Of a DNA stretch of 52,904 nt, positions 47,910 to 52,904 are shown piece by piece; the first letter of the stretch is position 1, and each line of letters begins with the position of its first letter. A program made the position numbers and the translations under genes. The notes beneath the pieces were generated by a model that saw only the letters and a list, made by a program, of their open reading frames with translations, was not told where the DNA came from and ran no database searches. Source of the stretch: Gammaproteobacteria bacterium (lineage in GTDB: Bacteria; Pseudomonadota; Gammaproteobacteria; Pseudomonadales; Pseudohongiellaceae); contig JAUHWU010000007.1 in the NCBI GenBank assembly GCA_030427065.1, positions 1-52,904 on the forward strand, in the 5' to 3' direction.

Positions 47910-49187
47910 TTAGCTATTTGCCACCCACTTGGTAAACTTTATTATTGTCCGGGTTAAAACAAGCAGATCGTCGGGCTCCATGATGTAGGGAGGCATGATA
48001 TAGACCAGCTTGCCAAAAGGCCTTATCCACACGCCATTTTGGACAAAAAAGGCCTGTGCCCGGGCCATATTAACAGCCTCTTTCATTACCACCACCCCGA
48101 TAGCGCCCAGGACTCTGACATCGGCCACGCTTGCGCTATCCCGGCATTCTGCCAATTCGCTATTCAGCTGCTTTTCAATACCAGCCACTTTCTTCTGCCA
48201 GTTTTCCTGTTCAAGCAGCTTGATGCTGGCAAGTGCGGTGCTGCAGGCCAGAGGATTGGCCATAAACGTGGGCCCGTGCATGAAAACCCCCTGGTCTCTT
48301 GAAATGCCCGCACTTACTCTTTCCGTGCACAGGGTGGCGGCAAGAGTCATATAGCCTCCGGTAAGCGCTTTTCCCAGACACAGAATATCCGGACAGATAG
48401 CGGCATGCTCACAGGCGAATAATTTGCCGCTGCGGCCGAAGCCGGTGGCAATTTCGTCGGCGATTAACAGCACGTTAAATTCATCGCACAGGGCTTTTAT
48501 GGCCGCCAAATAATCGGCTGAATAAAAGAACATTCTGCCTGCACCCTGTACGATGGGTTCGAGAATGACCGCGGCAACGGTATTGTGGTGCTCTTCCAGC
48601 AAGGCTTTCATGCTGGCAATATCGGTATCAGAGCAAGTTTCATTGAAGCGGCATTGAGGCGCATCGGCAAAATAATGCTGAGGCAGAATGCCGTTAAAAA
48701 TATCATGCATGCCGGTAACCGGATCACATACGGACATGGCCGCGAAAGTATCACCATGATAACCATTACGGATGGTCACGAACTTGTGTTTCCCTGTCAC
48801 GCCCGAGTTGATCCAGTACTGCAAAGCCATTTTCATAGCGACTTCCACAGCAACAGAACCGCTGTCACAAAAAAATACCTTTTGCAGCTCGGCCGGGGTG
48901 CTATCCACCAGTTTTCTGGCTAATTCCACTGCAGGAGCATGGGTAATACCGCCAAACATGACGTGAGACATGCTTGAGAGCTGATCCATTACAGCCTGGT
49001 TTAGTACCGGGTGGTTATAGCCATGGATAGCACTCCACCAGGAGGCCATGCCGTCAATGAGCTGTGTGCCATTTTCCAGTACCAGCCTGACACCTTCTGC
49101 GTGCGTAACTGGATATACCGGCAGGGGATTCTCCATGGACGTGTAGGGGTGCCAGATATGTTGCCTGTCGTAGTCGAGGTCTATCAT
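47910..49187 (-). CDS. bioA: DAPA aminotransferase BioA
   Basis: This 425-residue PLP enzyme makes 7,8-diaminopelargonate from KAPA with SAM as amino donor. It begins with [17 protein letters not shown], typical of BioA, and has [27 protein letters not shown] has the PLP-binding Asp, [17 protein letters not shown] the Schiff-base Lys, and [14 protein letters not shown] the BioA-type phosphate-binding turn. It lies 44 nt after comF. With BioF, BioB and BioC nearby, only BioD and the pimeloyl esterase are unseen. Confidence 0.96.
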
Positions 49188-49231
49188 GGTTGGCTATTCT
49201 ATTGAATTAGCCCCCTCAGTCATAGTCGCAT

Positions 49232-49978
49232 TCACGCCACTGTTCGAGCAATTGCCCAGACATGTACTTCGCTGGCGCCGGCTTTCAATAACACCCTTGC
49301 AAGCTCGGACACAGTGGCGCCGGTAGTCACCACATCGTCCACTACTGCGACACTGGTGTTTGCCGCGAAATGAAAATCACCAACAATAGCGAAAGCAGAG
49401 CGCAGATTGCGCTGTCGTTCCCTGGCTGACAGTCCCGTTTGCCGGGTGGTATTTCTCGTTCTGCAGACAATACCCCTGCTGATCGTAATATCCAGATAGC
49501 GTGAAAGTGTGCGGGCAATTTCCAGTGCCTGGTTGTAACCACGCTGGCGAATACGGGCGTTATGGAGAGGAATCGGTATGACCATGGAAGGCAGGGGGTA
49601 ATCCTGGTATTGGCGTGCAATATGGCAGGCCAGTTGCTCGCTCAGCACTCGTCCACCAGTTAACTTATGTCTGTACTTGAAGCCCGCTATTAACGCAGAC
49701 ACCGGAGGATGATATTGGAAAGGAATAACGCTGCGGCAATAACCCGGTGGTAATACCAGGCAGGTGCCACACCGCGAAACGGCAACATTGTCAGTCGGCA
49801 GAGGCTGGCCGCAAACCGTACAGGGGTTTTTTACCCGCGGCAGGGCAAGCCGGCATGAGTCACATAAATCGGAATGTTGATAACTGGGTTGCCTGCAGTG
49901 AATGCAGGTACCCGGAAATAGAGCGAACTGTGCATTTATTAACCATTTGTAAACACTTTCTGGGATTCGGGTTGACAT
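49232..49978 (-). CDS. ComF family phosphoribosyltransferase-like protein
   Basis: This 248-residue protein has N-terminal zinc-finger Cys pairs (CIHC, CDSC, CTVCGQ, CGTC, residues about 25-75) and a C-terminal PRTase fold with VAVVDDVVTTGATVSEL as the PRPP loop. Homologues (ComF, GntX) help in DNA uptake or in use of DNA as a nutrient; the exact role is unclear. The ATG at 49978 lies within the BirA-type operator. comF, bioA and metF appear to form one leftward unit. Confidence 0.9.
   Translation of the reverse strand: MSTRIPESVYKWLINAQFALFPGTCIHCRQPSYQHSDLCDSCRLALPRVKNPCTVCGQPLPTDNVAVSRCGTCLVLPPGYCRSVIPFQYHPPVSALIAGFKYRHKLTGGRVLSEQLACHIARQYQDYPLPSMVIPIPLHNARIRQRGYNQALEIARTLSRYLDITISRGIVCRTRNTTRQTGLSARERQRNLRSAFAIVGDFHFAANTSVAVVDDVVTTGATVSELARVLLKAGASEVHVWAIARTVA
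49947..49978. promoter_or_regulatory. BirA operator of the biotin genes
   Basis: TTGTAAACA, 14 bases, then GGTTGACAT. The BirA consensus is TTGTAAACC-N14/15-GGTTTACAA, so 15 of 18 positions match at a correct spacing. It lies 99 nt before bioB and covers the comF start codon. BirA loaded with biotinyl-AMP should repress bioBFC here and probably comF-bioA-metF too. Confidence 0.8.
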
Positions 49979-49986
49979 GATAAGAT
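49978..49986 (+). promoter_or_regulatory. Extended -10 box of bioB
   Basis: TGATAAGAT fits an extended -10 (TGn-TAAGAT) and touches the BirA operator, so bound repressor would block polymerase. The -35 is weak. Transcription would start near 49993. Confidence 0.4.
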
Positions 49987-50076
49987 GCGCTCTTGAGCAA
50001 CTGGCTTCAGTGTAGGATCTAATTCATCTTGCGCCAGTCCAGTTTTTTGTCCGCATAACGATCTTCAGGATTATCT

Positions 50077-51105
50077 ATGACATCAATTACCCGCCATGAC
50101 TGGTCATTTGACGAAATAAAGGCACTCTATGAGCTGCCGTTCAATGATTTGCTTTTCCGCGCCCAGAGCGTTCATCGTGAAAATTTCGACCCGAATGCTG
50201 TGCAGGTCAGCACTTTGCTCTCAATTAAAACCGGGGCGTGTCCGGAAGACTGTAAATACTGTTCCCAGAGCGGGCATTACAATACCGAACTGGAAAAAGA
50301 AAAGCTTATTGAAGTCGCAAAAGTGCTGGATGAAGCCCGCAGAGCAAAGCAAAACGGTGCCTCCCGTTTTTGTATGGGCGCGGCGTGGAAGCATCCTTCG
50401 GCAAAAGATTTTCCCCATGTTCTGGACATGGTGAAGGGTGTCAGGGCGCTGGGAATGGAAACCTGTATGACACTGGGGGCCTTGAGTCCTGAGCAAAGCG
50501 AAGCACTGGCAGACGCGGGCCTTGACTACTACAACCATAATATTGATACCTCTCGTGAGTATTACAAAACCATTATCTCCACCCGAACCTTCGACGATCG
50601 ACTGCGAACTCTTGCCAATGTGCGAGATGCCGGTATCAAGGTTTGCAGTGGCGGTATCGTTGGTATGGGCGAAAATGAGCAAGACAGGATTGGCTTTCTG
50701 ATGGAACTGGCGAACCTTCCTCATCATCCCGAAAGTGTCCCTATTAATAATCTGGTGAAGATAAAGGGAACACCGCTGGAAAATGTGGATGAACTGGATG
50801 AATTTGATTTTGTTCGCATGATAGCTGTTGCCAGAATTCTGATGCCGGCTTCTCATGTGAGGTTGTCTGCCGGACGTGAGGAAATGAATGATCAGATGCA
50901 GGCTTTGTGTTTCTTTGCCGGTGCCAATTCAATTTTTTACGGTGAAAAACTTTTAACGACCTCCAATCCTCTCGAGAACGATGACATGCTGCTTTTCAGC
51001 AGGCTCGGCATTCATCCCGAAGAGATTGTTCTGGACCATGATGATCAGGAGCATGCACCGGTACCGGAGTCGTCTTCGGCTTTTTACGATGCGCTGTCGC
51101 ATTAG
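50077..51105 (+). CDS. bioB: Biotin synthase BioB
   Basis: This 342-residue radical SAM enzyme inserts sulfur into dethiobiotin. [10 protein letters not shown] (about residues 53-62) binds the 4Fe-4S cluster. The 2Fe-2S ligands lie in [17 protein letters not shown] and [11 protein letters not shown], plus the Arg in VRLSAGRE. The length is normal. It is the first gene of bioBFC and lies downstream of the BirA operator. Confidence 0.98.
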
Positions 51106-51126
51106 CAGTTGTTTCAGAAAGCCCCG

Positions 51127-52332
51127 GTGAAATCTTTTCGACAGGAACTCCAGTTAGCACTGGACGAAAGACAGAAAAATGCCTTATTCAGGCGCCGTCG
51201 CACGCTTTATTCTCCCCAGGGAACAGAGGTCATTCTGGATGGACAGCATGTCACTAGTTTTTGCAGCAATGACTACCTGGGTCTGGCAGATCATCCCGAT
51301 GTGGTTGAGGCCTTTCATCAGGGCCTGAATAAATTCGGTGCTGGCAGTGGTGCGTCTCATCTGGTTAGTGGTCATCTCGTTCCCCACGAGCTTCTGGAAC
51401 AGGAACTCGCTGCATTTACCGGACGTAGCGCAGCACTGGTTTTTTCCAGTGGCTACATGGCCAATGTGGGTGTACTGACGACTTTGCTGGATAACAACGA
51501 TGTTGTGTTGGAAGACCGGTTAAATCATGCCTCGCTACTGGATGGCGGACTTTTTAGTGGTGCCAGATTCAAGCGCTTTGCCCACCTTGATACAGCTGCT
51601 CTGGAAAAGAAACTATCCTCTATTCATGATGCCAGGAGAAAACTGGTGGTGGCGGATGGTGTCTTCAGTATGGATGGTGAAATCGCAGCACTGCCGGAAC
51701 TGATCAGGGTTACCAGTAATCACAATGGTTTGTTAATGATTGATGATGCTCACGGTATTGGTGTGCTGGGCAAAAATGGCGGCGGTACCATAGCTCATTG
51801 GCAAGAGCAGGGTGCCAAGATCGACGAAGATAATCTGCAAATTCTTATTGGTACATTTGGCAAGGCATTTGGTGCAAGTGGTGCGTTTGTTGCCGGCAGT
51901 GAAGAGCTGATAGAAACATTAATTCAGTTTTGCCGACCCTATATATATACCACTGCCATTTCTCCCGCACAGGCTGAGGCTGTACGCGCCAGTCTTAAAA
52001 TAATCCAGAAGGATAATTGGCGACGCCAGTATCTGGCCCAGTTGATCAAGCGATTCAGAGCACATTGTGAAGATCTGGGATTGACCATGATCCCTTCCAG
52101 CACGCCAATCCAGGCAGTAGTTATTGGTGATGTCAGCAAAACTATTCAAGCCAGCGAACAATTAATGCATGAAGGGGTTTTTGTTTCTGCCATTCGTCCG
52201 CCCACAGTGCCAGCAGGAACAGCAAGATTACGTGTAACTTTTAGCGCGCTTCATACAGAATCACAGTTTCAGAAGCTGCTTGATGTGTTTGAAAAATATG
52301 CCCACTGCTGGGTTGAGGATGCGTCAGAGTGA
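51127..52332 (+). CDS. bioF: KAPA synthase BioF
   Basis: This PLP enzyme of about 401 residues joins pimeloyl-ACP and alanine to give KAPA. FCSNDYLGLADHP opens the fold, VLEDRLNHASLLDG and DDAHGIGVLG line the cofactor site, and GTFGKAFGASGAF holds the Schiff-base Lys. The start is uncertain: a GTG at 51127 lines up with E. coli BioF and leaves a 21-nt gap after bioB; a TTG at 51109 is the alternative. The end overlaps bioC by four bases (GTGA). Confidence 0.96.
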   Translation: MKSFRQELQLALDERQKNALFRRRRTLYSPQGTEVILDGQHVTSFCSNDYLGLADHPDVVEAFHQGLNKFGAGSGASHLVSGHLVPHELLEQELAAFTGRSAALVFSSGYMANVGVLTTLLDNNDVVLEDRLNHASLLDGGLFSGARFKRFAHLDTAALEKKLSSIHDARRKLVVADGVFSMDGEIAALPELIRVTSNHNGLLMIDDAHGIGVLGKNGGGTIAHWQEQGAKIDEDNLQILIGTFGKAFGASGAFVAGSEELIETLIQFCRPYIYTTAISPAQAEAVRASLKIIQKDNWRRQYLAQLIKRFRAHCEDLGLTMIPSSTPIQAVVIGDVSKTIQASEQLMHEGVFVSAIRPPTVPAGTARLRVTFSALHTESQFQKLLDVFEKYAHCWVEDASE

Positions 52333-52904
52333 ACAGCTTTCAGGGCTTACCGGACAAAAACAGAATTGCCCATGCGTTTGGCCAGGCAGCGAGTAGTTAT
52401 GACAGCTACGCCTGCTTGCAACGGGATATCGCCGATAAATTGTTTTCCAATTTGGGTGTTACTGAGCCCACCTCTATTCTTGACCTGGGCAGTGGCACCG
52501 GTTATTGCGCAGGGATTCTTTCTCAGCGATTTCCTGATGCAACAATAACCAGCCTGGATCTTGCTGATGCCATGTTGAGATATGCCAGAGCGAACAGCAT
52601 TAAACAACAGCAGGACAAATGTGAATTCTGGCTTTGCGGTGACGCCGAGAATTTACCCTTTGCTGATCAGAGCTTTGATCTGGTTATTTCCAACCTGACC
52701 ATACAGTGGTGTGAAAGCCCTCTTCAGGTCTTCAGGGAGTTGTTCCGGGTGATGAAACCCGGGGCACAGGCAAGTGTGAGTACGCTGGCAGAAGAAACCC
52801 TGACGGAATTGAAAGAAAGCTGGGCGGCCATTGATGATTATGTGCATGTCAACGAATTCCTGGCCTGCGAAAAAATTATTCAGGTTTCTGAAACCCAGCC
52901 ATTT
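52329..52904 (+). CDS. bioC: Malonyl-ACP O-methyltransferase BioC, 3' end missing
   Basis: 192 codons are visible before the window ends. A GTG overlaps the bioF stop, and the protein reads RIAHAFGQAASSYDSYACLQ, the usual BioC start. Motif I is ILDLGSGTGYCAG, followed by LDLADAML and NLTIQWCESPLQVFREL. BioC methylates malonyl-ACP to begin the pimelate chain. The coupling to bioF supports one bioBFC operon. Confidence 0.93.
   Translation, partial: MNSFQGLPDKNRIAHAFGQAASSYDSYACLQRDIADKLFSNLGVTEPTSILDLGSGTGYCAGILSQRFPDATITSLDLADAMLRYARANSIKQQQDKCEFWLCGDAENLPFADQSFDLVISNLTIQWCESPLQVFRELFRVMKPGAQASVSTLAEETLTELKESWAAIDDYVHVNEFLACEKIIQVSETQPF

Follow-up and report, generated by a model that had tools for sequence, protein, structure and literature searches.

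A predicted BirA operator for bioB embedded in the coding start of comF, with comF as a probable collateral target of biotin control

Upstream of the biotin synthase gene in the analysed window (the whole stretch of 52,904 nucleotides), a predicted BirA operator coincides with the start of a divergent comF/gntX-type gene, raising the question of whether a competence-type gene is a target of biotin control or a bystander. To the right lies bioB (50,077–51,105, plus strand; Pfam BATS and Radical_SAM), the first gene of bioB-bioF-bioC. A bioF-like aminotransferase gene (51,109–52,332, plus; Pfam Aminotran_1_2 and position) follows after 3 bp, and its end is overlapped by a bioC-like methyltransferase gene (52,329–52,904, plus; Pfam Methyltransf_11 and position) that runs off the contig. 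To the left lies comF (49,232–49,978, minus; 248 amino acids), with bioA (47,910–49,187, minus; TIGR00508, 598.6 bits against a cut-off of 405) 44 bp downstream in the same direction. The reading that we favour, with a probability of roughly 0.7, is that the site is an ordinary BirA operator for bioB(FC) embedded in the comF coding start, which makes comF a probable collateral target.

The operator is predicted at 49,947–49,978 (no strand assigned) and consists of the arms TTGTAAACA (49,947–49,955) and GGTTGACAT (49,970–49,978) separated by N14; the full sequence is TTGTAAACA-CTTTCTGGGATTCG-GGTTGACAT, or TTGTAAACa-N14-GGTTgACAt in mixed case. It is an imperfect palindrome scoring 15/18 against the BirA consensus TTGTAAACC-[N14/15]-GGTTTACAA of Rodionov et al. 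2002, as quoted in PMC545781; among the regulon sites quoted there, the consensus, the spacing of 14 or 15 and a GGTTGACA arm (e.g. Geobacter) fit the present site. In a scan of the 3.42 Mb genome, 49,947–49,978 was the sole match to TTGTMAACC-N14-GGTTKACAA with two mismatches, the random expectation being about 0.24 such matches per genome on a uniform-base estimate. The 15/18 match ending on the comF ATG, as described in the initial annotation, was confirmed by the sequence. Three-mismatch matches were approximately as common as with a backward-pattern control in the same genome, and one next-best match falls within the hfq coding sequence. A candidate second BirA target (TTGTAAACCATCTGGTTTACC...; contig C100 of genome G000 and C92 of G002) was rejected for G000, where it forms part of the hfq coding sequence and its translation is conserved Hfq protein.

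Helix-turn-helix (HTH, DNA-binding) and ligase domains are both present in this genome's BirA, which scored 321.6 bits with the bifunctional ligase/repressor model NF008847 (cut-off 293) and matched TIGR00122 over nearly its full length (58.4 bits, under the cut-off of 70). Because the site is conserved together with the gene order, is tied to the predicted bioB promoter as described below and occurs in a genome with an HTH-bearing BirA, we regard the prediction of a genuine BirA operator for bioB as well supported. A chance match was rejected, given that this is the only two-mismatch site in the genome and that 0.04 loci were expected from shuffled sequences among relatives; the position beside bioB also makes a chance origin very unlikely.

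On the bioB side, an extended −10 element is predicted at 49,978–49,986 (plus strand; TGATAAGAT) from the alignment of six genomes of the host genus. This element, TG-A-TAAGAT, overlaps the operator by one base, and TGRTARKAT adjoins the operator arm in all six genomes, so that the contact with an extended −10 of bioB noted in the initial annotation holds. The use of the right arm as the bioB −35 element in the host genus was rejected, since no −10 element occurs at the right spacing and the extended −10 is present instead. In the related genera g3, g5 and g8, all 14 loci (14/14) have a −10 element (at least 4/6 matches) exactly 16 nt beyond the right-arm TTGACA, and the same spacing was found in 11 of the 14 loci from other families of the order. 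The right, outer arm is therefore predicted to double as operator and bioB −35 in these related genera. With either promoter type, operator-bound BirA would lie over the promoter of bioB.

The comparison with relatives covered 57 genomes of the genus, family and order, with a comF match in 55, and 42 loci in which comF and bioB diverge. The best match in these loci had one (7 loci), two (6), three (13), four (5), five (5), six (5) or seven (1) mismatches. A site with at most three mismatches was thus found in 26/42 loci, against a mean of 0.04 loci from shuffled sequences, which answers in favour of conservation the motif scan of relatives with the same gene order that had been proposed for this locus. 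A scan of named genomes found this gene arrangement in Pseudomonas, Stutzerimonas, Azotobacter, Xanthomonas, Lysobacter, Methylobacter, Kangiella, Sedimenticola and others. Taken together, 65 of the 102 comF loci next to a divergent bioB had a site with no more than three mismatches, as against none of the 31 remaining comF loci (Fisher p of 1e-11, indicative only because the loci are related), and where present, the site usually falls within the first codons of comF. Some scanned loci share the gene order but have weak sites (genus g2, 4–6 mismatches) or no site (G040, G041 and most beta-proteobacterial loci).

In the genome studied, the comF ATG (49,978–49,976) forms the final three bases of the bioB-side arm, and codons 1–11 (MSTRIPESVYK) are operator DNA. 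A scan found no other in-frame ATG, GTG or TTG before the zinc-ribbon cysteines; hence, the overlap is real and not an annotation choice, and a wrong start annotation was rejected for this genome. The product combines a zinc ribbon with a phosphoribosyltransferase-like domain, as in the ComF/GntX family (DZR_2, 36.8 bits, cut-off 27; Pribosyltran, 24.9 bits, just under 26.3), and is matched by the GntX and comF NCBIfam models below their cut-offs. ComEC is encoded in the same genome. In Helicobacter pylori, ComFC is required for DNA uptake or handling and has its zinc-finger cysteines, C3 and C6, at the very start (PMC9005727); by this comparison, the operator-encoded residues of comF are an N-terminal extension.

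The position of the comF start relative to the operator varies by lineage, where starts outside the genome studied are readings of open frames rather than mapped starts. It lies in the bioB-side arm in the host genus, g2, g8 and G051, inside the spacer in, for example, Stutzerimonas (ATGGTTTACAA), 5 nt before the operator in Pseudomonas (codons 3 onward, CQP.....VYxWLK) and past the operator in a dozen loci. Of the 55 loci whose comF reading frame runs open across the operator, 50 combine a spacer of 14, 15 or 16 with outer-arm frame 0, 1 or 2, respectively. The spacer tracks the frame, so that the inner arm continues to be read as GTT-TAC (Val-Tyr; exactly GTT in 43/50 and TAC in 39/50). comF proteins without a nearby bioB mostly lack the Val-Tyr start. 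From this pattern, we infer that the operator DNA, rather than protein function, keeps the first codons of comF. The same 32 bases would then serve as BirA site, as border or part of the bioB promoter and as comF start, with a repressor operator and a protein N-terminus evolving as one sequence. In one genome without bioB (locus L055 of G045), MVYSP still precedes the first cysteine pair of comF and may be a vestige of the lost operator.

For comF itself, the initial annotation had considered a promoter further left; as comF lies on the minus strand, a comF promoter would instead be expected on the right-hand, bioB side. A putative comF −10 element, TACACT (50,009–50,014, minus), was proposed there from the conservation of the motif AGTNTAG on the plus strand, with its direction deduced. 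This motif (CTANACT on the minus strand) occurs in 17/25 family loci, 12–56 nt right of the operator (approximately 0.2 in shuffles), and was found in 0/14 loci of other families of the order and 0/40 loci of named Gammaproteobacteria. Together with a −35-like CTGGCG 17 nt away (50,037–50,032), it is a plausible comF −10, the comF promoter as a whole being a weak consensus. The comF transcript would then start at approximately 50,002, placing BirA at about +25 to +56, a roadblock position. Since a comF mRNA that starts to the right of the ATG must cross the operator, biotin-dependent blocking of comF is likely and, with tight BirA binding, would be difficult to escape.

In the proposed mechanism, BirA would dimerise with biotinyl-AMP when biotin is plentiful, bind the operator and hide the bioB promoter, through the extended −10 abutting the right arm or, in related genera, through the right arm acting as the −35 TTGACA. 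As comF starts inside the operator, a transcript arriving from the right would run through it, and bound BirA would probably also block comF as a collateral roadblock. Repression of comF by biotin is thus likely, as a side effect, and the biotin control of comF suggested in the initial annotation is supported in part. In this view, comF is a neighbour of long standing, and the operator has shaped its first codons. In Escherichia coli (bioA <- bioO -> bioBFCD), one BirA operator likewise lies between divergent transcripts with bioB on one side. There, however, the leftward neighbour is bioA rather than comF, and the spacer is 16 rather than 14; in the present locus, unlike bioO, the operator lies inside the coding sequence of the leftward gene and the predicted −10 of bioB sits immediately beyond it. 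The initial annotation had contrasted the two arrangements by the presence of comF between the operator and bioA. This gene order is correct and common to most of the family, but the contrast is smaller than stated. In E. coli, 7 bp separate the end of the operator from the bioA ATG, so that in both systems the start of the leftward gene borders or overlaps the operator. While a BirA operator is of a known kind, its variant within a coding start, the wide conservation and the frame coupling are new in the literature searched. We found no description of an overlap of comF codons with a BirA operator in that literature (Rodionov et al. 2002 itself excluded) and no report of biotin effects on comF.

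Two alternatives concern how far repression reaches. The operator might control bioB only, with comF transcription passing BirA unhindered or occupancy too weak to block it. The imperfect 15/18 match would suit weak occupancy, and the centre of the site would lie not over the comF promoter but about 40 nt into the predicted comF transcript. However, E. coli bioA, with similar geometry, is repressed by BirA (PMC5438404), and we consider control of bioB only rather unlikely. Repression could instead extend further, to a comF-bioA leftward operon with comF as first gene, i.e., the E. coli layout with an inserted gene. Such an operon would fit the same-strand arrangement with a gap of 44 bp, the comF-bioA order seen in most genera of the family and the lack of a BirA-like site between comF and bioA. 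On the other hand, a ATTCAATA(G/A)AAT block with a −10-like element stands just before the bioA ATG in 5/6 genomes of the host genus, and TATNAT-like elements also precede bioA in genus g5. In the window, this conserved block yields a putative promoter ATGACT-N16-TAGAAT (49,196–49,223, minus) ending 8 bp before the bioA ATG, although a promoter scan of the comF-bioA gap, taken alone, was at chance level. bioA probably has its own promoter in the host genus. BirA control would then not have to reach bioA by way of comF, but both promoters could still operate. A repressed comF-bioA operon is a tentative alternative, somewhat more credible than control of bioB only. In the gap itself (49,188–49,231), most genomes of the genus share a conserved ATTCAATAGAATAG block whose end closely precedes the bioA ATG, which suggests a (nearly) leaderless bioA transcript with a promoter of its own.

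A further alternative to the collateral reading is that selection keeps comF in the biotin regulon, its function in DNA handling, or in the use of DNA as a nutrient, being tied to biotin status through shared control. The linkage of comF with bio genes is indeed widespread, as comF-bioB here and in named Gammaproteobacteria and as comFC/gntX-bioH elsewhere (PMC5438404); moreover, the operator lies at or inside the comF start in most lineages, and the putative family-specific promoter points at comF. The comFC/gntX-bioH neighbourhood, attributed to Akatsuka and co-workers as cited in PMC5438404, resembles the present locus as a long-standing association of comF with a biotin gene (Vibrio and Shewanella loci), but the biotin gene concerned is bioH, and a BirA site was not found at the comF of Vibrio or Shewanella. 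Likewise, none of the 31 comF loci away from bioB has a site. The operator also outlives the decay of comF in G001: locus L061 (ca. 2270–2630) retains a comF remnant with an internal deletion, and the adjoining operator (TTGTAAACA-N14-AGTTTACAT), the bioB −10, bioA and bioB are kept. Furthermore, 15 genomes in which comF is absent or does not adjoin bioB were searched for bioB, which was undetectable in 12; those of the 12 that have comF keep it without the site. As the site tracks bioB and not comF, as bioB-less relatives keep comF without it and as it persists in G001, control of comF by biotin is probably not what selection maintains, and selected membership of comF in the regulon appears improbable. 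Equally hard to credit, and if anything slightly more so, is the broader proposal that, across many Gammaproteobacteria, the presence of the operator in the first comF codons makes ComF synthesis obligatorily dependent on biotin starvation through BirA, and that this coupling is itself selected; if true, it could serve, for example, the handling of incoming DNA when biotin or nutrients are short. As the layout is shared with well-studied Pseudomonas species, the biotin response of a competence-type gene could be tested there cheaply.

Several minor observations concern the gene neighbourhood and BirA among relatives. The divergent comF-bioH pair of Shewanella and Vibrio (loci L172 and L184) may be what is left of an ancestral comF-bioB-bioF-bioH-bioC cluster after other bio genes had moved elsewhere. 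Within the host family, bioB was not detected in G008, G009, G010, G015, G016, G020, G025, G026, G030 and G034, which are probable biotin auxotrophs. No good site was recognised in G009, G010, G016 and G026, which lack bioB and have an HTH-bearing BirA; the single two-mismatch match, in G026, was rejected as a BirA target because it falls in recB. Genomes of genera g5 and g6 without bioB keep the DNA-binding part of BirA with no recognisable operator. In genus g4, which lacks bioB, the best BirA match is without the N-terminal DNA-binding part, which would suit a loss of the HTH going with loss of the site; HTH detection, however, misses some genomes with strong sites (e.g. G055 and G043), probably as a limit of sensitivity. 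Finally, G004, a genome of the host genus, carries two full-length BirA genes (C28:2072–3070 and C150:4639–5619), either a true duplicate set or contamination.
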